DNA of 48,725 bases from Mariniblastus sp. (GTDB lineage: Bacteria > Planctomycetota > Planctomycetia > Pirellulales > Pirellulaceae): NCBI GenBank assembly GCA_014237975.1, contig JABACA010000003.1, positions 1-48,725 on the forward strand, in the 5' to 3' direction. Below the pieces are notes generated by a model. That model saw nothing but the letters and a program-made list of their open reading frames with translations, searched no databases and had not been told where the DNA came from. This document shows positions 35,939-47,983 of this stretch, piece by piece. Numbering within the stretch: the stretch's first letter is position 1; each line of letters begins with the position of its first letter. Both the position numbers and the translations under genes were made by a program.

Positions 35939-36371
35939 CGAATAAACCTGCCGAGTTGGGAAATCTGGCTGCCATCTCAAACTGACAACAACAAATGATG
36001 ATCAAGTTCGGCTTCACACTTTAACTCTCACATCTGAGCCATCGTAAAAACGCAAAGGAATTTGGTCTAGGCGGGACAAACGACAAGAATTAAACCTCAT
36101 CCGAGCGACAGGCCCGGGATCCCCCCGCCCCGGCCAGCCGAAACGTCGACCGAAACGGCGACCGAAACGTCGACTAACGGCGAATATGGCATCGCAAACT
36201 AACAGTCGTGCCAGATAACGGGCTGAATGGGGTTTTTCCGGATAAACGCATATTGGTTTTTCTGAGGCATCATCTATTTCCCGTGTAATTTCATGGGAAA
36301 CCTTGTCGATTTCTTGATAAAATAGGACGTTGTTGTTTACATGGTGCTCCGCCGTTGAGGAATTTCCGAAG
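35939..36371. other. Divergent intergenic region
   Basis: 433 bases between divergent genes, holding both promoters in principle. It contains three 12-bp tandem repeats (36139-36174, listed separately) and a G+C-rich stretch at 36110-36180 next to A+T-rich sequence. The 160-codon minus-strand frame at 36014-36496 overlaps the start of the propeller gene and encodes Arg/Phe/Gly repeats; I do not accept it as a gene. Confidence 0.4.
36139..36174. repeat. Three 12-bp tandem copies, cgaaacgtcgac type
   Basis: Copies 1 and 3 are identical (cgaaacgtcgac); copy 2 differs at one base (cgaaacggcgac). The CGTCGAC ends contain the palindrome GTCGAC. It lies in the upstream region of the propeller gene at 36372 and of the orphan gene. 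Confidence 0.9.
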
Positions 36372-38087
36372 ATGTTTAACTTCAAATTGATGCCATATCT
36401 ACCGCTGGCCGTTTGCGCGTGCTTAATTGCAGGCTCACTTGTTGGGCCAGCGGTGCGAGCCAATGATGGTGTGCTTTCTGATGCGAGTGTCAGCAATGCC
36501 GGATTGGTTGTCGACTGGTTTACCCAGGTAGAAGTCGCAGCAGGCGGTTACTTGGTAGACATCCAGATGACGGTTGATGAGAACCAAACCACGACGCTGT
36601 TTGACGTCATCTATGGCAAACACAACGAACAGATTTCTGAAAATGACTTGGACGCTTTTGGCAAGCCGTACGGTATCAAAGGTGCAGAAGAGCAGGCCAA
36701 TGTTCGTCGCGAAATCATTCAGGCAGAACTCAAAGCCCAAAATCAATCGGATGTAGAGGTCAAGATTGAGAAAGTTGTTTTACCCAAGATCACTTTGTAT
36801 ACGGTTAATTCCCACGGAGTGACGACTGCGTTGGATGGTGCAACGGGTGAAACAATATGGGTAAAGGCGGTCGGCCGTCGGAACTTCCCAACGATCGGTT
36901 TGGGTGCGTCGACAGGTTCTTATGTAAGTGTCAAGGGCAAGTCGGTTTACCAACATGGCCGGGTGGCCGTGGTGAATGGCAATTCAATTTACTGCCTGGA
37001 TGCTGGCAATGGAAAATTACTGTGGAGCGAACCAGCAACGTGGCCTCCGATCGCTCCACCAGTGGTCAACGATAAATTCATCTTCGTTCCCACGACAACC
37101 GGACGGTTGCAGGTATTTTCTTTAGAGAACAAAGGGATCGGTGAAGACAATTTTGTTTCCATCGGCATTTCCACATCACGTCCATTGTTGACAGAAAGAA
37201 CCGTTTCATGGGCAACCGACAGTGGTTACTACACGGTTGCACCCAACCACGAAATCCGTTCACCAAAATTCCGTGTCAGTGCCTCGGATTCAATCATGTC
37301 AACCGGTGGCTACAGCAATGGACTCCTGTTTGTCACTTCAAAAGACGGTTACATCTACGCCGTGGATGAACTTCATGGAGGATTGGTTTGGGAACTCACC
37401 ATGGGACAACAGATTTTCAACTCCCCGGTGGCGATGCAAGATGATCTTTACGTTTTCACAAGGGAAAACAATCTTTTCAAGATAGCAGCCGAGTCGGGCA
37501 AGCGAGCAGACGGTTGGGATGACCCGGTTTCCAACATCACCGAGTATGTCGGTGCGAGCCAGAAAAGGCTCTACGTCTTGGACAAAATGAAAAAACTGAA
37601 TGTGCTGGATCAAGCTTCGGGTGACCTGATTAATGTTATCGTCAGCGATCCTGTCACGCTTGTTTGTGCAAACACAAAAACGGATCGTCTCTACGTCGGA
37701 TCCAAACAAGGTTATATCCAATGCATTCGCGAGGTCGGAAATGAGTTTCCTTTCTTTCACGATGCCGACACCAAGAAAAAGGATGAGGACGAGGGCCAAA
37801 AGGACAATCCTTTCCGCAAGGATGAACCCGGCAAAGATCCATTCAAGGCGGGCACTGACGACGACCCCTTCAAGACCACGCCCAAGAAGGATACCGATGA
37901 GGACAAGGCGGACCCCTTCAAAGCGGGTGGCGCCAACGACCCATTCAAATCGGGTGGCGGTGGCGATCCCCTCAAGTCAGGCGGCTCTGACGACAAATCA
38001 GGTGGCGGCGACGATCCCTTCAAGTCAGGTGGCTCTGACGACAAATCCGGTGGCGGTGACGATCCCTTCAAGTCGGGTGATGGTTAG
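36372..38087 (+). CDS. Secreted PQQ-like propeller protein with repeat tail
   Basis: A 571-residue exported protein. Signal peptide MFNFKLMPYLPLAVCACLIAGSLVGPAVRA. After an N-terminal segment of about 140 residues come PQQ-like propeller strands: LYTVNSHGVTTALDGATGETIWV, VVNGNSIYCLDAGNGKLLWS, GYIYAVDELHGGLVWEL, LFKIAAESGKRADGW and LYVLDKMKKLNVLDQASGDL (parts of each). The tail, about residues 470-571, is low-complexity with DPFK(A/S)GG elements, including two 48-bp repeats. ATG at 36372 is chosen to start the signal peptide; GAGG is 12 bases upstream. A terminator follows at 38140. A surface-exposed or ligand-binding role is likely; no catalytic motif is seen. Confidence 0.78.
   Translation: MFNFKLMPYLPLAVCACLIAGSLVGPAVRANDGVLSDASVSNAGLVVDWFTQVEVAAGGYLVDIQMTVDENQTTTLFDVIYGKHNEQISENDLDAFGKPYGIKGAEEQANVRREIIQAELKAQNQSDVEVKIEKVVLPKITLYTVNSHGVTTALDGATGETIWVKAVGRRNFPTIGLGASTGSYVSVKGKSVYQHGRVAVVNGNSIYCLDAGNGKLLWSEPATWPPIAPPVVNDKFIFVPTTTGRLQVFSLENKGIGEDNFVSIGISTSRPLLTERTVSWATDSGYYTVAPNHEIRSPKFRVSASDSIMSTGGYSNGLLFVTSKDGYIYAVDELHGGLVWELTMGQQIFNSPVAMQDDLYVFTRENNLFKIAAESGKRADGWDDPVSNITEYVGASQKRLYVLDKMKKLNVLDQASGDLINVIVSDPVTLVCANTKTDRLYVGSKQGYIQCIREVGNEFPFFHDADTKKKDEDEGQKDNPFRKDEPGKDPFKAGTDDDPFKTTPKKDTDEDKADPFKAGGANDPFKSGGGGDPLKSGGSDDKSGGGDDPFKSGGSDDKSGGGDDPFKSGDG
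37980..38075 (+). repeat. Two 48-bp tandem copies in the propeller gene
   Basis: Each 48-bp unit encodes GGSDDKSGGGDDPFKS (16 residues). The copies differ at only a few third-position bases. Shorter DPFK-containing elements precede them. Confidence 0.85.
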
Positions 38088-39974: not shown

Positions 39975-40892
39975 ATGAAACGATCGGCCGCCATCCTGGG
40001 ACCCACCCCTTCGTTTGTAAGATGGGCCATACGCGTCGAATGCCCGTTACGGGACTTACCTGACCAAAACTTACCCGATTCCACGTTCCGTGAACTACGT
40101 GGCCTGAGGGAGCTATCCTATGGTCTGCGGCAAAATCGGGTATTCAATGGCATCTGCATTCATCCCGAATGGAATCAGGACAGCGATACCGCCAAAGGTT
40201 TTTTCACTGACGAAATATGCGAAGTTTTTGGAGGACCGGATTTTGTTGATTCCTGCTGCAAAACCTGCCCCGCCAACGCCTGCCAAGTGGCCGCAGGACC
40301 ATCGTCCGTTACAGCCGATCAACGGCCGCTATGGGCAGGCTGTTATGGCTGGTTTCCCTCTCGGCACGAAGCCCAGGATTACCTTCAGCTTTTCCACGTT
40401 GCCTGGGAAGCATCCAATGGCAAGCCAGACATCGACGGGGGACTGAAAACCACTCCTTGTTGGTATGGTCTATGGCAGGTTCACCATTGGGCCGGACAGC
40501 GATTGGAGCATCTCGACCTCTTGATAAACCAGGTGATCGAACTGGGTGGGGCAACCGTTGCCAACGATCCCAACCTTGGCGAATTGGCAGCCGCAGTCCG
40601 GCAGTGCCGAGATTCCCAATTGTCACTGGAAACCGAGCTGGTTCCAGCAGGTCACTCGGACGGGATCCACTGGTGCCTGGAGTCTCATTGTCCCGACTGC
40701 GGCAAGGAAATGGACTCGCAGCAACTCGACTGCCCTGCTTGCGGACGACACGGGCGCCCCCATCCAGAATCAAGAAGAAAAGTACTTGGACAACGCCCCT
40801 ACCGCCCACTGAAACAAATGATCGGCCCCAAAAAAACGGAAGAAATAATATTGACTTATAAGAAAACAAAGGACCGACAAGTAAACAACTAG
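39975..40892 (+). CDS. Conserved-looking protein with C-terminal zinc ribbon
   Basis: A 305-residue cytosolic protein of no family I know. The ATG at 39975 is preferred over an upstream TTG at 39966. Residues about 92-103 hold a Cys cluster (DSCCKTCPANACQV). The middle region is Trp/His-rich (LWAGCYGWFPSRHEAQDYLQLFH and CWYGLWQVHHWAGQRLEHL in pieces). Residues about 237-256 form a zinc ribbon (CPDCGKEMDSQQLDCPACG, two CxxC knuckles). The tail is basic (GPKKTEEIILTYKKTKDRQ). It is 22 bases downstream of purH, so possibly co-transcribed. The stop overlaps the stop of the small gene on the other strand. Confidence 0.7.
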   Translation: MKRSAAILGPTPSFVRWAIRVECPLRDLPDQNLPDSTFRELRGLRELSYGLRQNRVFNGICIHPEWNQDSDTAKGFFTDEICEVFGGPDFVDSCCKTCPANACQVAAGPSSVTADQRPLWAGCYGWFPSRHEAQDYLQLFHVAWEASNGKPDIDGGLKTTPCWYGLWQVHHWAGQRLEHLDLLINQVIELGGATVANDPNLGELAAAVRQCRDSQLSLETELVPAGHSDGIHWCLESHCPDCGKEMDSQQLDCPACGRHGRPHPESRRKVLGQRPYRPLKQMIGPKKTEEIILTYKKTKDRQVNN

Positions 40893-41065
40893 CGGGTGGA
40901 CTTGAAATATCCGCGGTTTGATCTGGCCGTTACAAAGTGGTCGTATTCGGTTTCCAGCTGTTGCAGCTCATTAACAATCCAGATCTCGAGTTTAAGTTCC
41001 AGGGGCGATATCGCCTCGGTATTGGATTCTCGGGAATCTGTTGTTTTGGTTTGCTTTTCGGACAT
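40889..41065 (-). CDS. Small 58-residue protein
   Basis: A short gene supported by its sequence pattern. The ATG at 41065 has AGAGG 7 bases upstream, a good ribosome-binding site. The product begins MSEKQTKTTDSRESNTEAIS, then LELKLEIWIVNELQQLE and TEYDHFVTARSNRGYFKSTR, i.e. a polar N-terminus, an amphipathic helix and a basic aromatic C-terminus. Codon use looks normal. Its TAG stop (40889-40891 on the plus strand as CTA) overlaps the TAG of the zinc-ribbon gene (40890-40892), so four bases, CTAG, end both genes. I do not recognise a family; conservation in relatives would settle it. Confidence 0.65.
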   Translation of the reverse strand: MSEKQTKTTDSRESNTEAISPLELKLEIWIVNELQQLETEYDHFVTARSNRGYFKSTR

Positions 41066-41623
41066 GATACGGCCTCTGTAAGAACAAACAGTTGGTTAGA
41101 TGCGACAAACACCGTGGTTTAATTCCTAAAACGCAACTGTCATGCCAAAAAGAGAGAATGCGTTCGGCCCCAGAACCACCACTTTTCATTGAGAAAATGG
41201 GCCTGTTGCGCACCTTTTTGCCACACGGCGAGACGAAAAGCGTCATTTTGAGCACACCCAGTGACCGAATTGACTGCAGCCATCACCATCACCGAGAACT
41301 GCTGGTACCGATCAAGCGGATAAGCCGGATGAGAAAAACCGCCGCTGCGCCTGGGTTAGTGTGGTAAGCGATGCCCTTGAAACGAATTACGTTCACCAGA
41401 CCACTTGTGAAATAAGAAAACCGAATTGGAGGCCGAACCTCCGTGTCAGACCAGGCAAGATAATTTGAGTCCTCCGGTTAGCCATAAATTACTTTTCAGG
41501 CAAATAACGGGCTCTGGGCGGTTGATGACATGTTTGAGAGTGATAAACTGATCGGGAATTGGAAACTTACGCCCGGTGTTGGGCACAACAAATGAGCCAT
41601 ATTTTTTCGGAGGCTACACCCAG
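41066..41623. other. Long intergenic region upstream of the cysteine-repeat gene
   Basis: 558 bases without a recognised gene. It has a GGAGG / CCTCC hairpin (41428-41442) and a 21-codon frame at 41530-41595 that could be a leader peptide. The 91-codon frame at 41092-41367 looks random. The region presumably carries the promoters of the small minus-strand gene and the cysteine-repeat gene. Confidence 0.4.
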
Positions 41624-42247
41624 ATGAAACGGAATCTTCTACCACTCGTAATTGCAATGCTGTTTGTCACTGGCACTGCATTCGCACAAGAAACGCCACA
41701 ACCAGCCGATGGCGTTGTTGAAGCGCCAGTGTCACCAGAAGCTGCGGTTGGAAGTAGTGACTGCTGCAATCCCTGCTGTGATCCTTGTGATCCATGCTGT
41801 AATCAGCGACAAGGTTTCTTTGCTCGAATGCGAGCTCGACGCTGTTGTGAAACAACCTGTTGTAACGAGTGTACGACAACGGTTCAAACAGCCTGCTGTG
41901 ATCCTTGTGATCCATGCTGCAACCAGCGTAAAGGTCTCTTTGCACGCATGCGAGATCGTCGCTGTTGTGAAACAACTTGCTGTAATGATTGCGCGACTAC
42001 CGTTGAAACGGCCTGCTGCGATCCTTGTGATCCCTGCTGCAACCAACGTATGGGTTTCTTTGCTCGCATGCGAGCTCGCCGTTGTTGTGAACCAACTTGC
42101 AACACATGCGAAACGACTGCAATGGCCATGCCTGAAATGACCACGACTGCTGCAGTTGCTCCAACCACTGATTGTGGTACGTGCCAAACTGACTGCTGCA
42201 AACCTCGCCGTCGCACAATGTTCCGACGTCGCAATTGCTGCAATTAG
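41624..42247 (+). CDS. Secreted cysteine-rich protein with three 40-residue repeats
   Basis: A 207-residue exported protein that I cannot place in a family. ATG at 41624 starts a signal peptide (MKRNLLPLVIAMLFVTGTAFA-Q) and has GGAGG 10 bases upstream. By my count it has 37 Cys (about 18%). Three tandem 40-residue repeats (residues 51-170) share CCDPCDPCCNQR, then G(F/L)FARMR, then RRCCE.TC and a Thr-rich end. The N-terminal part after the signal is Pro/Ala/Glu-rich, and the C-terminus has DCGTCQTDCC and an Arg-rich RRRTMFRRRNCCN end. Paired CC and CxxC patterns could form disulfide-linked networks or bind metals. A structural surface protein or metal-binding protein is inferred. It is followed by a strong terminator. 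Confidence 0.85.
   Translation: MKRNLLPLVIAMLFVTGTAFAQETPQPADGVVEAPVSPEAAVGSSDCCNPCCDPCDPCCNQRQGFFARMRARRCCETTCCNECTTTVQTACCDPCDPCCNQRKGLFARMRDRRCCETTCCNDCATTVETACCDPCDPCCNQRMGFFARMRARRCCEPTCNTCETTAMAMPEMTTTAAVAPTTDCGTCQTDCCKPRRRTMFRRRNCCN
41774..42133 (+). repeat. Three 120-bp tandem repeats in the cysteine-rich gene
   Basis: Units start at 41774, 41894 and 42014, exactly 120 bp apart. Each encodes the 40-residue module; the third has lost part of the CCETTCCN region (CCEPTCNTC). High similarity suggests recent duplication. Confidence 0.92.
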
Positions 42248-42270
42248 TCAATCTGACTAAACCAATCGCA

Positions 42271-42304
42271 AAAAACCGCTGTCGTATGGCAGCGGTTTTT
42301 TTTT
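42271..42304. terminator. Bidirectional terminator between convergent genes
   Basis: Stem CCGCTG / CAGCGG extended by an A-run on the left and a T-run on the right (nine T), with an 8-base loop. It follows the cysteine-repeat gene by 23 bases. The flanking A-run means it can also end the minus-strand cytochrome gene transcript. Confidence 0.88.
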
Positions 42305-42367: not shown

Positions 42368-44170
42368 TCACAGGCTATTCAGGAAAGCGAGCAAGTTTTT
42401 CACTTCTTCCTCACTCAGCGGAGCATCCAGTTGATGCCTGTATTTCTTGACAACATCAGCCAATGAACTGGCTCGATTGTCATGAAAAAAATAATCTCTT
42501 TGACTCAATCCCAACAGCACCGGCGGGTTGAAAGTTCGCAAACCATTTTCGTCGGACAGCCCCACATCATAATTTTGACGCGAGGAATAATGGGGAGGCT
42601 CGTGGCATTCAGTACAATTCAATGAACCAAACAACCGCTTTCCCTGATGGATTCGATCGACCTGCTCCCTTTTCCTGGCTGCATTGATTGCCGGTGGAGC
42701 TGGAAGCGTCTGCAGGAAAGCCGTGATGGCACTGACCGTTTGTTCTTCAACCCGATGGCTGGATTGCATGGTCACCTCAATCGACTTCCGCACCTGATCG
42801 TCCAGTGAGATGGAACCGCCATTCCAGGCAAAGGGCGCCGATCCGGATCGTCCCAATAGTGAGATAACCCTTTTGGGCGTCCCAAACGAACCATCGCTGG
42901 CATTGTCATTCAGTTGACCATTTGTGTGGCCTTCAACATGACAGCTATGACAGCTCATCCATCCATCGAGTGATAAGTTTGCATCGGAAAACAATCGCTC
43001 ACCCTGCTGCGCCATTGTCAGCTCCGGCGTCTGGCCCAAGCTGATCGTCTGGATCGCTTCGAATTTCTCCAGATCGATGACCGTCACGGAATCATCCAGC
43101 ATATTGACCACGAACGCCTGTCTTCCCAACCCGATTACATCCAGCGGCCGGCGGCCCGTTTCCACAAAGGCAAATTCCAATTCATCACTCAAAGCCACGC
43201 CCAGTTGATCAACGCCAGCAAGGGCTACCAAGGTGTACTGGGGACTCAACCAGATAGCACCCGGATCCGCTTTGGCGTTTCGCGGGCCACCGATAGCGCG
43301 GTAATCTTTTAAAAGCAAATCGACTTGGGCAGTTTCGTGCAACCATTCAACGGGTACCTGGCTGACTCGATTGGCCACCATCAAACCCCAGAATACGTCA
43401 TTTCGTGTAGACTGCGCCAACGGGTTTAACATTTGGTCCGTCAACAACAACGATTTCCCATCCGGCCGCAGTGCTGCTCCACCGAACCGATGATCAGCGA
43501 CTAACCGGTGGTTTACTGTGAAGGTCCGAGCATTGACAACAGCCATTTGTCCATCGAATGCACCGAGTATCAACAGATCTTCATTGTCTATCCAACACAA
43601 CCGGCCAGGAACGAAATCGAGGTCAATCACGCGGCGACTCATCGGGTTGGAGTCCCACTCCTTAATCTTGGAAATCTCGATTTGCCTCGACCAATGGCCT
43701 GCAACGGCAATCAGATCGTTTCCCGGAGAGATCTTGACCGACCGACAGTAATTAACTGTTTTAGAATTCCATTGTGCTTGAAGCCGACCGTCTGCCAGCA
43801 GTTTCAGACAATGCAATCGACCATCATCAACATCCGTCAACAAAAAAAAGCGTTTACTACGATCGGCAGTGAACCCAGCAGCCTTATTCACGACATCGAA
43901 TTCCGAAACCACAACGTTGTTGACCGAATCAATGACGGAAATAGAGCCACTGGTTGAGTTGGCTACCAACAGTCGATTCTCTAAATAAGTCGATTCAATA
44001 GAAATGGGGCGACGGAATCGAACCTGGTCCTTGGCACCGTCGAAATCCGCTTCCTCAGCTTGAGTCGTTTCCGCAGTCGTCCAGAAGAGCCCGTTCCCTA
44101 CAGTGATGAACACGATCATCACCAAAAGTTGGCCCACAAGCGAATACCCAAATCGAAATCTATCTAACAT
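42368..44170 (-). CDS. Secreted YVTN-type propeller and cytochrome c protein
   Basis: A 600-residue exported protein. Start at 44170 (MLDRFRFGYSLVGQLLVMIVFITVGNGLF in pieces, a signal or anchor helix); the frame extends to 44362 without homology. Residues about 45-400 form a YVTN-type propeller (RLLVANSTSGSISVIDS, GLGRQAFVVNMLDDSVTVIDL). The C-terminal third has two heme c sites: SCHSCHVEGH near residue 407 and NCTECHEPPH near residue 520, in an arrangement like MauG / di-heme cytochrome c peroxidases, with GTPKRVISLLGRSGSAPFAWNG between. It ends SEEEVKNLLAFLNSL, typical of this group. An electron-transfer or peroxidase role in the periplasm is likely. It converges on the cysteine-repeat gene and shares its terminator. 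Confidence 0.85.
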   Translation of the reverse strand: MLDRFRFGYSLVGQLLVMIVFITVGNGLFWTTAETTQAEEADFDGAKDQVRFRRPISIESTYLENRLLVANSTSGSISVIDSVNNVVVSEFDVVNKAAGFTADRSKRFFLLTDVDDGRLHCLKLLADGRLQAQWNSKTVNYCRSVKISPGNDLIAVAGHWSRQIEISKIKEWDSNPMSRRVIDLDFVPGRLCWIDNEDLLILGAFDGQMAVVNARTFTVNHRLVADHRFGGAALRPDGKSLLLTDQMLNPLAQSTRNDVFWGLMVANRVSQVPVEWLHETAQVDLLLKDYRAIGGPRNAKADPGAIWLSPQYTLVALAGVDQLGVALSDELEFAFVETGRRPLDVIGLGRQAFVVNMLDDSVTVIDLEKFEAIQTISLGQTPELTMAQQGERLFSDANLSLDGWMSCHSCHVEGHTNGQLNDNASDGSFGTPKRVISLLGRSGSAPFAWNGGSISLDDQVRKSIEVTMQSSHRVEEQTVSAITAFLQTLPAPPAINAARKREQVDRIHQGKRLFGSLNCTECHEPPHYSSRQNYDVGLSDENGLRTFNPPVLLGLSQRDYFFHDNRASSLADVVKKYRHQLDAPLSEEEVKNLLAFLNSL

Positions 44171-44659
44171 GAAAATCCAATCAATCAACTTTCGATTCCG
44201 GCACCCATTTTCCCAAAAAACGATGAGTCTGTCGAGTTTGCATTCGCTACCATCGTTTATTGGGCAGGGGAATGGAGGTTCAAGATTTAAGTTTTTTCGA
44301 AAACTAATTCCTGCCCTGTCGAACTGGGCCAGTACCTCGGCCTCTCTTAAACCAGTATCCAATCGCCCTAATCTGATCCAGAGTGATCGTCAAACACCAC
44401 CATACACGACACAAACGGGTTGGCTGACAAACGGGGCCGGTCCCTACGAATATCTGTTGGATTCGGCTCAGATTAGGTTTCGGCATGGCATGCGGGCATC
44501 GATACGACGCTGACTGGGCTCATTCGCTATGGAATTCACCAATCGGGCATGTGGCACTGGCATTTACTTGAATTGTTTGAAACAATGGAGTTTTGTTGTC
44601 GGCAAGGGTTCATGGGAACCGCAGGCAAAATCGTTCTGGAATTGAGCGTGGAAATTTAG
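44171..44659. other. Divergent intergenic region
   Basis: 489 bases between the cytochrome gene and tex. The frames that cross it (including the N-terminal extension of the cytochrome frame and the 136-codon plus-strand frame at 44103-44513) have no protein-like pattern. No promoter could be assigned with confidence. Confidence 0.4.
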
Positions 44660-47600
44660 ATGGTCATTGATCTCGCGGCGATTGCACGCGATTTAAAGAA
44701 GCCGGTTGAGCAAATCGAGACGGCTTTGAAACTGCTGGATGATGGAAACACTATCCCGTTCGTAACTCGTTTCCGTAAAGATGAAACCGGCGGATTGGAC
44801 GAGGAGGCATTGCAGTTTATCCAGCAACGCGTTGCCAAGATCAGGGCGATTGATGAACGACGCGCTTTCGTGCTGAAATCTGTCGAGTCGCAGGGGAAAT
44901 TGAATGACCAGCTTGCGGCAGCCATCAAAGCGGCAACTTCATCTAGAGAACTAGAAGATGTTTATCTGCCGTTTAAACCCAAAAAACAGAATCTGGCATC
45001 ACAGGCCAAGCAGGGCGGCCTGGAACCGCTGGCCATGGATGTGTTTGAAAGTCGCTCAACCGAAATCGATTTGGCAACACGAGCCACTGATTTTGTTCGG
45101 GTCGACAAAGGTCTGAAATCCGTCGACGATGTTATTAAAGGTGTCGGTTACATCCTCGCCGAAAAATTCGCAGATCGTGGAGATGTTCGAGCATTACTGC
45201 GGAAGTGGGTCTGGGAAAATGGAAAACTCTTCACAACCATTATCGGCGCTGGGGAAACTTCCACGAAAGCAAGCCCAGTCAAAGAAGCGACTGAAGCCCG
45301 CCCCAAACCGGCACCTGTTGATGCAGCAACCGACCCGTCACCGTCCAAGCCCAATGACCCGTCCAATTCAACCGTTGCCGCAGAGCTTCCCGCCAGCGAG
45401 AGTCAACAGGAGCCAGGGGACACAGATCAACCCAAACCATTGAGCTCGGCGGACGTTGCTGAACCGAAAACTGACGATCCGGTCACAACTACAGAAAAAT
45501 CGGCACCTGAAACGGAAGAATCCGTTTCACCACCACCTGAGAATCCTACACAAGATTCTGAGTCGCAGTCGGCAACAACCACTTCGGTGGATTCCGTTTC
45601 ATCAGATGCGGCCCAGCAACCTGATGAAAAAATTGAGCCCGCCGTGGTCAACGAATCGCCTGGCACTTCACAATCCAGCGAGGTTATTGGCGGGAGCAAC
45701 GGGAAAGACGTTCCCTCTGTCGATGCCGCCGGAACCGCCAAGAAGAAAAAGAAGAAAAAGAAGAAAAAGAAACCGGTCGACGACCCGTTTAAAGATTATC
45801 ACGACTTTCAGACACCACTGAAGAACATCCCGCATTACCGGGTTTTGGCGATCAATCGCGGTGAGAGGGCGTCAAAATTAAGGGTGAAAATCAAAATTGA
45901 AGACGAGCAGCTCATCGCCTTAGCGAGTGAACACCTGGTACCAGCCGACCATCCCAACGCGGAATTCATGAAAAGCTGCGTCAAGGATGCGCTACATCGA
46001 CTGATTATGCCCAGCCTGGAGCGGGAAATTCGCCGTGAATTGACCGATGGTGCAGAACGGCAGGCGGTTACCGTTTTCGCACACAATTTGAAAAACCTGC
46101 TGCTGCAAGCTCCAGTTCAAAACCAGAGAATATTGGCCATTGACCCGGGTTACAAGCGCGGGTGCTCGGTCGTTGCCATGGATAGCTGTGGCAAAATACT
46201 TGAATCGGCTCACATTTTTGTCGTTGGCAATCAACAACGTAAGACCGCGAGTACCGACAAGATCGTCGAGCTGGTCAACAAACACAAAATCGACCTGATA
46301 GCAATTGGTAATGGGGCTGCATGCCGAGAGGCTGAGCAAATGGTTTCCGATTCCATTGCCAACCACTTCGCAGAGCAAAGTCTCAAGTATGCAATGGTCA
46401 ATGAGGCCGGAGCCAGTTTCTATTCCACCAGCGAGATCGGTCGCGAAGAACTGCCGAAACTCTCGCCTGCCGTTCGCAGTGCCGTTTCCATCGGTCGCCG
46501 TTTAATGGATCCCCTGTCAGAACTGGTCAAGATCAGCCCGGCCAACATCGGGGTAGGCATGTATCAACATGATGTAAAAGCAAAACACCTGAGTGACTCT
46601 CTCGATGAAGTTGTAAGGTTCTGTGTTAATCGCGTGGGTGTCAATGTCAACACGGCCAGCCCGTCACTGCTGCGTTATGTATCTGGCTTGAACCAGTTAA
46701 CCGCTCGCCGTGTATTTGAGTACCGCGAAACTAATGGCCCTTTCAAGAATCGATTGGAACTCAAGAATGTAACAGGTTTTGGTGACGCCACGTTTGTCCA
46801 GTCAGCAGGTTTTTTGCGGGTACGTGACGGCAATCAGCCATTGGATTCCACTGCCATCCACCCGGAAAGTTACCCGTTTGTCGAAACGGTAATCAATCAG
46901 GTCGAAGCCTCACTGGAAGAGATTTTTCCGCAACCTTTGAATGAGAGCGACGTTAACCAGCCGGAGAAAACCGACACACCGCAATCGGTCGACCCCGCTG
47001 AAAGCGCCGCGGTTGATGGTGCCCCTGCCGACCCAACGAATGACAATGTCGAGCCCAAAGCCGACCTCGATTCGTCGCAATCCGCCGAACCGAAAGCGGA
47101 ATCAATGGAGGCACCTCCCACTCACCAGGAAACTCCGCCAAGCGACGGGGCCGACCCTGAACCCGCCTCGACCATCGATCCGAAAGGTGAAGACACCAAG
47201 GAATCCCAACCGACCAATCAAAACAAAGCGGCACGCCAACCGAGTCCTTACCGGCTTTCGCCGGAAGTTATGAATCGCCGGAAAGAGATCGTCAGGGCCC
47301 TTCGTGAACTGGACATCCAGCAATTGGCCGTTGAGAACAACGTCGGGAAGATGTTGGCCAAAGATATCCTGCAGGTTCTTTGTCGACCCGGTTACGATCC
47401 ACGGAACAAGATTAACCGACCCGTTTTTCGAAAAGGCATTCTTAAATTTGACGAACTGAAACCTGAACTGCAATTGGACGCCCAGGTTGTCAATGTCGTT
47501 GACTTTGGTGTGTTCGTCGACATCGGATTGGGAACCAGTTGCCTGGTCCACGTTAGCCAGTTGGCCAATCGTTACATTCGAGACCCCCACGAAATTTTTG

Positions 47601-47983
47601 CGGTAGGCGACGTGTTGCAGGTTTGGGTCACTGAGGTGGATGCCACTCAACGAAGAGTAAAATTGACTGCGATCCGTCCGGGATCACAAAGCAAGCCTGA
47701 CAACAAACGAGGGCAACCACGACGAGGATCTGGCAACTCTAACCGGCACGTCGCGGGCAGTAACCGCCCTGCCAACCGGCGAGACCGTCAGCCTGATCGC
47801 AAAACCCGTTTCAAAAAGGGACAAGAAAAATCGCGCCGCCGTCCACCTAAACCGGTCAAGCCGATTACCGATGAAATGCTTAGCGGCAACGCTCCGATGC
47901 GATCTTTTTCAGACCTGAGTCAATTCTACGATAAGAAATCTGACACTGATAAGCCCAACGACGTGAAAGAAAAAAATGAGTGA
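44660..47983 (+). CDS. tex: Tex (S1 RNA-binding transcription accessory protein) with two long insertions
   Basis: A 1107-residue Tex/YhgF protein, which binds nucleic acids and acts in transcription; typical members have about 720-785 residues. The N-terminal Tex domain has IPFVTRFRKDETGGLDEEAL and RELEDVYLPFKPKK. An insertion at residues about 198-373 is Pro/Ser/Glu/Ala-rich and ends in 11 consecutive Lys (361-371). Then come DYHDFQTPLKNIPHYRVLAINRGE, the YqgF-like RNase H fold (ILAIDPGYKRGCSVVAMD, about 492), helix-hairpin-helix (NVNTASPSLLRYVSGLN, about 661), a second disordered insertion (about 758-860) and the S1 domain (LDAQVVNVVDFGVFVDIG, about 940). A basic Arg/Lys-rich tail ends the protein. 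ATG at 44660; the last 8 bases overlap the DUF3144-like gene. Confidence 0.93.
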   Translation: MVIDLAAIARDLKKPVEQIETALKLLDDGNTIPFVTRFRKDETGGLDEEALQFIQQRVAKIRAIDERRAFVLKSVESQGKLNDQLAAAIKAATSSRELEDVYLPFKPKKQNLASQAKQGGLEPLAMDVFESRSTEIDLATRATDFVRVDKGLKSVDDVIKGVGYILAEKFADRGDVRALLRKWVWENGKLFTTIIGAGETSTKASPVKEATEARPKPAPVDAATDPSPSKPNDPSNSTVAAELPASESQQEPGDTDQPKPLSSADVAEPKTDDPVTTTEKSAPETEESVSPPPENPTQDSESQSATTTSVDSVSSDAAQQPDEKIEPAVVNESPGTSQSSEVIGGSNGKDVPSVDAAGTAKKKKKKKKKKKPVDDPFKDYHDFQTPLKNIPHYRVLAINRGERASKLRVKIKIEDEQLIALASEHLVPADHPNAEFMKSCVKDALHRLIMPSLEREIRRELTDGAERQAVTVFAHNLKNLLLQAPVQNQRILAIDPGYKRGCSVVAMDSCGKILESAHIFVVGNQQRKTASTDKIVELVNKHKIDLIAIGNGAACREAEQMVSDSIANHFAEQSLKYAMVNEAGASFYSTSEIGREELPKLSPAVRSAVSIGRRLMDPLSELVKISPANIGVGMYQHDVKAKHLSDSLDEVVRFCVNRVGVNVNTASPSLLRYVSGLNQLTARRVFEYRETNGPFKNRLELKNVTGFGDATFVQSAGFLRVRDGNQPLDSTAIHPESYPFVETVINQVEASLEEIFPQPLNESDVNQPEKTDTPQSVDPAESAAVDGAPADPTNDNVEPKADLDSSQSAEPKAESMEAPPTHQETPPSDGADPEPASTIDPKGEDTKESQPTNQNKAARQPSPYRLSPEVMNRRKEIVRALRELDIQQLAVENNVGKMLAKDILQVLCRPGYDPRNKINRPVFRKGILKFDELKPELQLDAQVVNVVDFGVFVDIGLGTSCLVHVSQLANRYIRDPHEIFAVGDVLQVWVTEVDATQRRVKLTAIRPGSQSKPDNKRGQPRRGSGNSNRHVAGSNRPANRRDRQPDRKTRFKKGQEKSRRRPPKPVKPITDEMLSGNAPMRSFSDLSQFYDKKSDTDKPNDVKEKNE
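45740..45772 (+). repeat. Poly-lysine codon run in tex
   Basis: Eleven consecutive Lys codons with the 9-base unit aagaagaaa repeated three times and then aagaaa. It ends the first disordered insertion of Tex. Confidence 0.95.

Follow-up and report, generated by a model that had tools for sequence, protein, structure and literature searches.

A cysteine-rich repeat protein of Mariniblastus as a candidate accessory of the YTV wall

We describe P0001, a cysteine-rich repeat protein of Mariniblastus sp. whose gene lies in a 48,725-nucleotide stretch of DNA, here called the window, and which we read, with about even confidence, as an exported, stand-alone and disulfide-linked structural accessory of the YTV protein wall. 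One exported chain would carry repeated units, each made of a Cys cluster, a basic stretch and a second Cys cluster; disulfides would join these clusters internally and to the Cys-rich YTV wall proteins, the basic stretches would dock the protein to partner chains, and P0001 would act as a linker or mortar in the YTV layer. The three near-identical Cys units placed behind a signal peptide support this reading. We infer the wall location, the disulfide state, the partner and the mechanical role from sequence, and export was judged by eye. The features of the locus are listed in Table 1.

Table 1. Features of the P0001 locus, in window coordinates
Feature	Position	Strand	Basis
Leader conserved at the DNA level, 5' of the gene	41455..41623	+	identity to orthologous loci
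GGAGG, likely ribosome binding site, 10 nt 5' of the ATG	41609..41613	+	sequence; function inferred
P0001 gene, Cys-rich exported repeat protein of 207 aa	41624..42247	+	ORF, Cys count, dN/dS
Signal peptide, residues 1–21, MKRNLLPLVIAMLFVTGTAFA	41624..41686	+	by eye
Cys-free linker, residues 22–46	41687..41761	+	protein sequence
Unit 1, residues 51–90	41774..41893	+	TRF, Cys positions
Unit 2, residues 91–130	41894..42013	+	TRF, Cys positions
Unit 3, truncated, residues 131–162	42014..42109	+	TRF, Cys positions
Cys/Arg tail, residues 184–207, CGTCQTDCCKPRRRTMFRRRNCCN	42173..42244	+	protein sequence
Intrinsic terminator, 14-pair hairpin then T run	42270..42304	+	z -4.5

The signal peptide, 37 Cys and three repeats noted in a preliminary description of the same DNA are all present in the open reading frame (ORF), the third repeat being shorter. 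The signal peptide was read by eye as ending between AFA and QE. P0001 has exactly 37 Cys, none of them outside the mature part, where they make up 19.9% of the chain. Among the window ORFs with 120 residues or more, 32 when overlaps are excluded, it is a Cys outlier (17.9%, versus 4.9% for the next one and a median of 1.1%). The units follow the pattern CCDPCDPCC...RRCCE, with CCDPCDPCC starting at residues 51, 91 and 131, and TRF detects at 41772–42100 a 120-bp period with 85% matches and 2.7 copies, which is why the third unit is considered truncated. CC pairing is above expectation in the mature chain, with 14 pairs versus a mean of 7.2 over 5000 shuffles, yet some shuffles exceed it (maximum 16). 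The Arg-rich ends reported earlier are present, and that account was incomplete in that a basic stretch also lies within each unit. The idea that this stretch forms an amphipathic helix was dropped, the alpha moment being significant in 0 of 24 segments and the beta moment in 1 of 24. An AlphaFold prediction from the three-sequence alignment of P0001 was unusable (mean pLDDT 34.3).

Downstream, the hairpin and T run of Table 1 bear out the proposal that the gene has its own terminator; this hairpin was absent from a simple terminator scan, which returned two other sites, a chance-level number. The 558-base upstream region described previously corresponds exactly to 41066–41623, provided that a 58-residue ORF on the minus strand (40889–41065) counts as the neighbour. 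This small ORF ends in or beside the end of a 308-residue gene, is equally long in the two orthologous loci (L025 and L026) and is possibly a real small gene.

Orthologues of P0001 are found at the same locus in two Mariniblastus MAGs, ALOHA_ZT_22 (L025) and ALOHA_ZT_21 (L026), where they are positioned between purH plus the 308-residue gene and tex. The dN/dS ratios, 0.07 and 0.17 for the window versus the two orthologues and 0.11 between the orthologues, support coding of the ORF, and P0001 is under purifying selection. Residues 22–36, within the Cys-free linker, are the same in all three proteins. The number and spacing of the Cys residues differ, with 37, 31 and 27 Cys in the three orthologues and 30/37 and 25/37 of the window residues retained; such variable and odd numbers are better suited to a network than to a single fixed fold.

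Conservation extends beyond the protein. As far as the ATG, the leader shares 93.5% and 79.2% of its bases with the two orthologous loci, and GGAGG is unchanged in both. In the three comparisons, pS is only 0.19, 0.25 and 0.35 over codons 1–40 of the P0001 gene versus 0.75, 0.75 and 0.83 over its remainder. Synonymous positions in the neighbouring genes are close to saturated: pS is 0.69–0.81 for purH, with 0.53–0.58 for its first 40 codons, and 0.51–0.62 for the first 40 codons of tex. The leader identity and the low pS of the first codons together suggest that about 280 bp (41455–41735) are held, across the three species compared, by more than the protein sequence. An RNA element in the leader was rejected, since the leader has no match in Rfam and 41455–41735 shows no excess of RNA folding (z 0.38). 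Other leader matches in the 28 genomes of the genus cover just 18 to 26 bases, with E 0.0185 or worse. The simplest reading of the conserved leader would be a transcript under tight regulation or with high expression.

The neighbours of the P0001 gene are purH, the 308-residue gene, for which Pfam gives no match, tex and a gene resembling cytochrome c peroxidases. P0001 could, in principle, be a secreted Cys-rich protein that serves some other purpose, for instance an adhesin, a redox buffer or a peptide used in competition or as a cationic antimicrobial, and the signal peptide, the basic stretches, the patchy distribution in the genus and the strongly conserved leader and first codons, which suggest tight or high expression, would all suit such a protein. 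We consider this quite improbable: no immunity, transport or processing gene is present among the neighbours, and the net charge of the mature chain, about +1 in the window and -7 and -4 in the orthologues, is unlike that of a cationic antimicrobial peptide.

The cytochrome c peroxidase-like gene (CCP_MauG, 42368–44362, minus strand) is an insertion that separates the Cys gene from tex in the window locus alone among the three orthologous loci. As a partner of P0001 it was rejected, with relatives in 4 of the 28 genus genomes and none in the two that bear the orthologues (G005 and G011). The tex locus was retrieved for 24 of the 28 genomes, and a P0001 match lies upstream of tex in the window itself and in two others (L120 and L121); the upstream stretch of the remaining 21 has no P0001 match, an absence that is weaker for L126, L128 and L131, which have less than 900 bases upstream of tex. 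A plasmid origin was rejected, as a plasmid collection gave no match. Elsewhere in the window, DPFKSGG-type tandem repeats (37914–38079) lie at the C-terminal end of the ORF at 36330–38087, and the tex-like gene (44660–47983) has a lengthy insert of low complexity that includes a run of about 11 Lys codons (45740–45771).

P0001 falls outside the known families, as had been claimed, and profile searches, by which that claim could be challenged, found no match in Pfam or NCBIfam at E up to 10. This includes metallothionein, disintegrin-like and OmcA/OmcB models in both databases, and keratin-associated protein models and the YTV domain (PF07639) in Pfam; Pfam and NCBIfam do contain Omc models, and Pfam contains models of keratin-associated proteins. 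The single PHROGs match has an E value of 0.2. Similarly, none of the relatives of P0001 passed a cut-off: two have Pfam matches with E 7.6e-4 and 0.093, one has an NCBIfam match with E 0.012 and one reaches the late cornified envelope model with E 0.032. For the A2 set, Pfam returned four families, each in one of the eight members and insignificant (E 0.032 to 0.94).

P0001 does, however, belong to a family of stand-alone unit proteins of the Pirellulales, which seems to be without a name so far. Homologues that share the repeat, on which the preliminary description had made its interpretation depend, thus exist. The unit has the consensus DPCxPCCxxRxG(L/F)FA(R/K)(L/M)(R/K)A(R/K)xCC and is carried by Cys-rich, apparently exported proteins; the best window unit matches the unit profile A1 with E 2.7e-15, the window units themselves being part of that profile. 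With up to 20 to 27 candidates scored per genome, which makes the genome counts lower bounds, A1 matches at least 20 of 296 genomes of the order, in 12 of 121 genera (E 1e-3 or better), and the wider profile A3 matches at least 8 of 392 genomes of the phylum, seven of them inside the order and the eighth (G578) with an internal stop. The matched ORFs are mostly small, with many Cys pairs and, by look, an apparent signal sequence; L050 is an exception with 67 residues and 5 Cys, and L043 and L045 have just 13 and 14 Cys. At L116 (7051–8592, minus strand; the wider context of L078 in G010), an exported-looking protein of 514 residues has 75 Cys, four DPCxxRVGLL units and no Pfam or NCBIfam match. 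A full-text search of open-licence papers for the unit strings CCAPEPT, GLFARLKA, CCDPCDPCC and GLFARLRA gave no paper, and among the open-licence results listed in planctomycete literature searches no title or start of an abstract describes such a family, most results being off topic, which is not proof.

Kinship within this family was examined with a profile built from the three orthologues alone, which leaves the tested relatives out. Among 26 relatives, chosen by a match to the unit profile or to P0001 and related to each other, 21 score above all 300 Cys-fixed shuffles, in which every Cys keeps its position. The other five are reached by some shuffles, namely by 1 (L042), 1 (L088), 5 (L061), 48 (L023) and 266 (L064) of the 300; L023 is counted in the 26 although its scored ORF is in the wrong frame (104 residues versus the 82-residue protein). 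Within the genus, 14 of 28 genomes have a unit match with E 0.01 or better, of which the one in G004, where the overlapping ORFs have no more than 5 Cys, is probably due to chance. The window-type gene is present in 3 of the 28 and a type of 191–199 residues in 7. With this distribution, the unit protein is not a universal wall part.

The wall itself is documented, in the available portions of the sources, as follows: YTV proteins, known as components of SDS-resistant walls, are Cys-rich wall constituents (PMC8567305) and major constituents of SDS-boiled Gemmata walls (PMC5287468), wall rigidity is suggested to depend on YTV cysteine (PMC10632474), and accounts of planctomycete walls as protein-rich go back a long way (Konig 1984 and Liesack 1986, cited in PMC8567305). 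All 28 genus genomes have YTV domains, versus 0 of 14 controls. The genome that carries the window encodes a Cys-rich YTV protein of 474 residues with 67 Cys (PF07639 score 102 bits), and a second YTV protein, with 2 Cys, on the contig of the window near 66205. We compared 21 YTV proteins, from this genome and 20 further ones of the genus, taking the type that resembles the own-genome protein where there were several. All of them carry CCGGASY near the N-terminus and all 21 have, by eye, a Cys-basic-Cys tail at the C-terminus.

These tails resemble the stand-alone unit. With the HMMER composition correction off, no more than 3 of 300 Cys-fixed shuffles reach the score in 6 of 21 tails for the P0001-type profile and in 16 of 21 for A3, versus 0 of 21 for the preceding 130-residue YTV stretches (A3, uncorrected); with the correction on, the numbers fall to 1 and 0 of 21, and in either case the tails come from a single genus and are not independent. 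The own-genome tail is reached by 0 of 300 shuffles with both profiles uncorrected, and by 116 and 225 corrected. The clearest unit within a YTV tail is that of G041, a genome that has no stand-alone unit match: it scores 32.5 bits uncorrected versus a shuffle maximum of 17.1, and is negative when corrected. The open frame of this YTV protein (L179, 1134–2774, minus strand) contains 72 Cys, and the unit-like stretch of the tail reads DPCCNGGRRGLFGKRCGC...CCCEPAP, then GCGFFARMRGLFAGCGC.

The likeness between unit and tail might instead reflect convergence in Cys/Arg composition, which would make it uninformative on the wall while remaining compatible with all the other readings; we regard this as a serious possibility, if somewhat short of an even one. 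Convergence would concern the likeness of units and YTV tails and leaves aside the kinship among the stand-alone proteins. It gains from the biased unit of about 32 positions, from the near disappearance of the signal under the composition correction and from the five relatives, one of them scored on the wrong ORF, that some shuffles reach. It is opposed by the design of the Cys-fixed shuffles, which preserve composition, by the uncorrected difference between the tails and their neighbouring stretches, and by the uncorrected scores of the own-genome and G041 tails. Kinship between the unit and the YTV tail is thus supported in part, by one scoring and not by the other. The Cys content of the YTV proteins has a median of 9.5% in genomes with a stand-alone unit (n = 9) and 4.6% in those without (n = 13; Mann-Whitney p 0.0007), an association that had already caught our attention when we tested it and that leaves out 6 of the 28 genus genomes; taking into account a tree of tex fragments from 19 genomes, p is 0.067.

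The preliminary description had offered two ideas, a disulfide-linked surface or wall component and a metal-binding protein. The first seems the better one, judging from the recurrence of the unit in further Cys-rich proteins of the order and from the likeness of the YTV tails, and what counts against it is the outcome of the searches for VKOR and DsbA. VKOR was not found in the own genome (G000, 94.8% complete) nor in G005, G011, G018 and G036, and was present in G010, G105 and G108; DsbA was above the cut-off in 0 of 8 genomes, the own genome included. The same searches were positive in 3 and 8 of 14 control genomes. Oxygen, or an oxidase other than these, would then need to oxidise the Cys residues of P0001.

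If the thiols stayed reduced, the second idea would gain: P0001 could be a periplasmic or extracellular metal-binder, whose CxxCxxCC clusters would hold Zn, Cu or similar metals as thiolates for storage or protection. The 37 Cys and the repeated CDPCDPCC are consistent with such a role, and the best PDB match is a zinc-binding LIM domain, albeit an insignificant one (E 0.085; E 0.58). We nonetheless judge it unlikely, as P0001 matches no known metal-binding family in Pfam or NCBIfam, its mature chain has no His, and the drift of Cys number and spacing among the orthologues is not what a fixed site would show. Those bacterial metallothioneins that are known, to which P0001 is similar in its high Cys content, are cytosolic and small, whereas P0001 has a signal peptide and no match to their profiles.

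Some relatives of P0001 have a recurrent neighbourhood. In 8 of the 20 neighbourhoods retrieved (L100, L101, L103, L104, L105, L107, L111 and L115), a gene for a P-loop NTPase of about 500 residues, a lipoprotein-like gene and the Cys gene follow one another in this order on the same strand, and a ninth has the lipoprotein-like gene without the NTPase; they are spread over three families of the order (f1, f7 and f13). The P-loop was assigned by eye, with sub-cut-off NACHT/AAA matches in Pfam for 2 of the 3 NTPases scanned, and the five lipoprotein-like genes scanned have no Pfam match. The pair was set aside as partners of P0001 because the NTPase was not found in the 28 genus genomes, none of which served as a positive control for that search; P0001 thus seems independent of the NTPase.

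Extending the preferred reading, that of a disulfide-linked accessory of the YTV wall, we tentatively envisage, as a possibility well short of even, a two-part wall in the Pirellulales, made of long Cys-rich YTV proteins and of small exported cross-linkers that consist of strings of units, with a Cys-basic-Cys docking unit on the YTV tail. Such a wall would be a bacterial counterpart of keratin and its keratin-associated proteins; neither VKOR nor a standard DsbA would take part in its oxidation, and its control would run via the strongly conserved leader. The small Cys-pair repeat proteins of the Pirellulales would be concrete candidates for holding the protein layer of the wall together, and how so many exported Cys would become oxidised in a genome in which the searches found no VKOR and no DsbA above the cut-off is a puzzle.

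Among known systems, the YTV proteins share with P0001 a signal peptide (by eye), many Cys, repeats and a C-terminal tail that looks Cys-basic-Cys; they differ by the YTV domain and by their length (474 residues in the own genome versus 207), P0001 corresponding to tail-like units alone. The chlamydial Cys-rich proteins OmcA and OmcB are described, in the available portions of two sources, as cross-linked by disulfides in the envelope (PMC6752827) and as Cys-rich envelope proteins (PMC2811131). P0001 is likewise Cys-rich, whereas it has no Pfam match and its disulfides are predicted from sequence. We know of no 40-residue tandem units in OmcA or OmcB. Keratin-associated proteins resemble P0001 in their very high Cys content, and some relatives of P0001 have runs such as CCAPEPTCCAPEPT, which we take to be similar to the pentapeptide motif of hair proteins. 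A repeating pentapeptide is reported for high-sulfur hair proteins in the available part of one source (PMC3107965). These proteins nevertheless belong to unrelated organisms, and P0001 is without a Pfam match. Our best reading is that P0001 would work most like the Cys-rich envelope proteins, YTV and OmcA/OmcB, with a composition that is also like that of the keratin-associated proteins.
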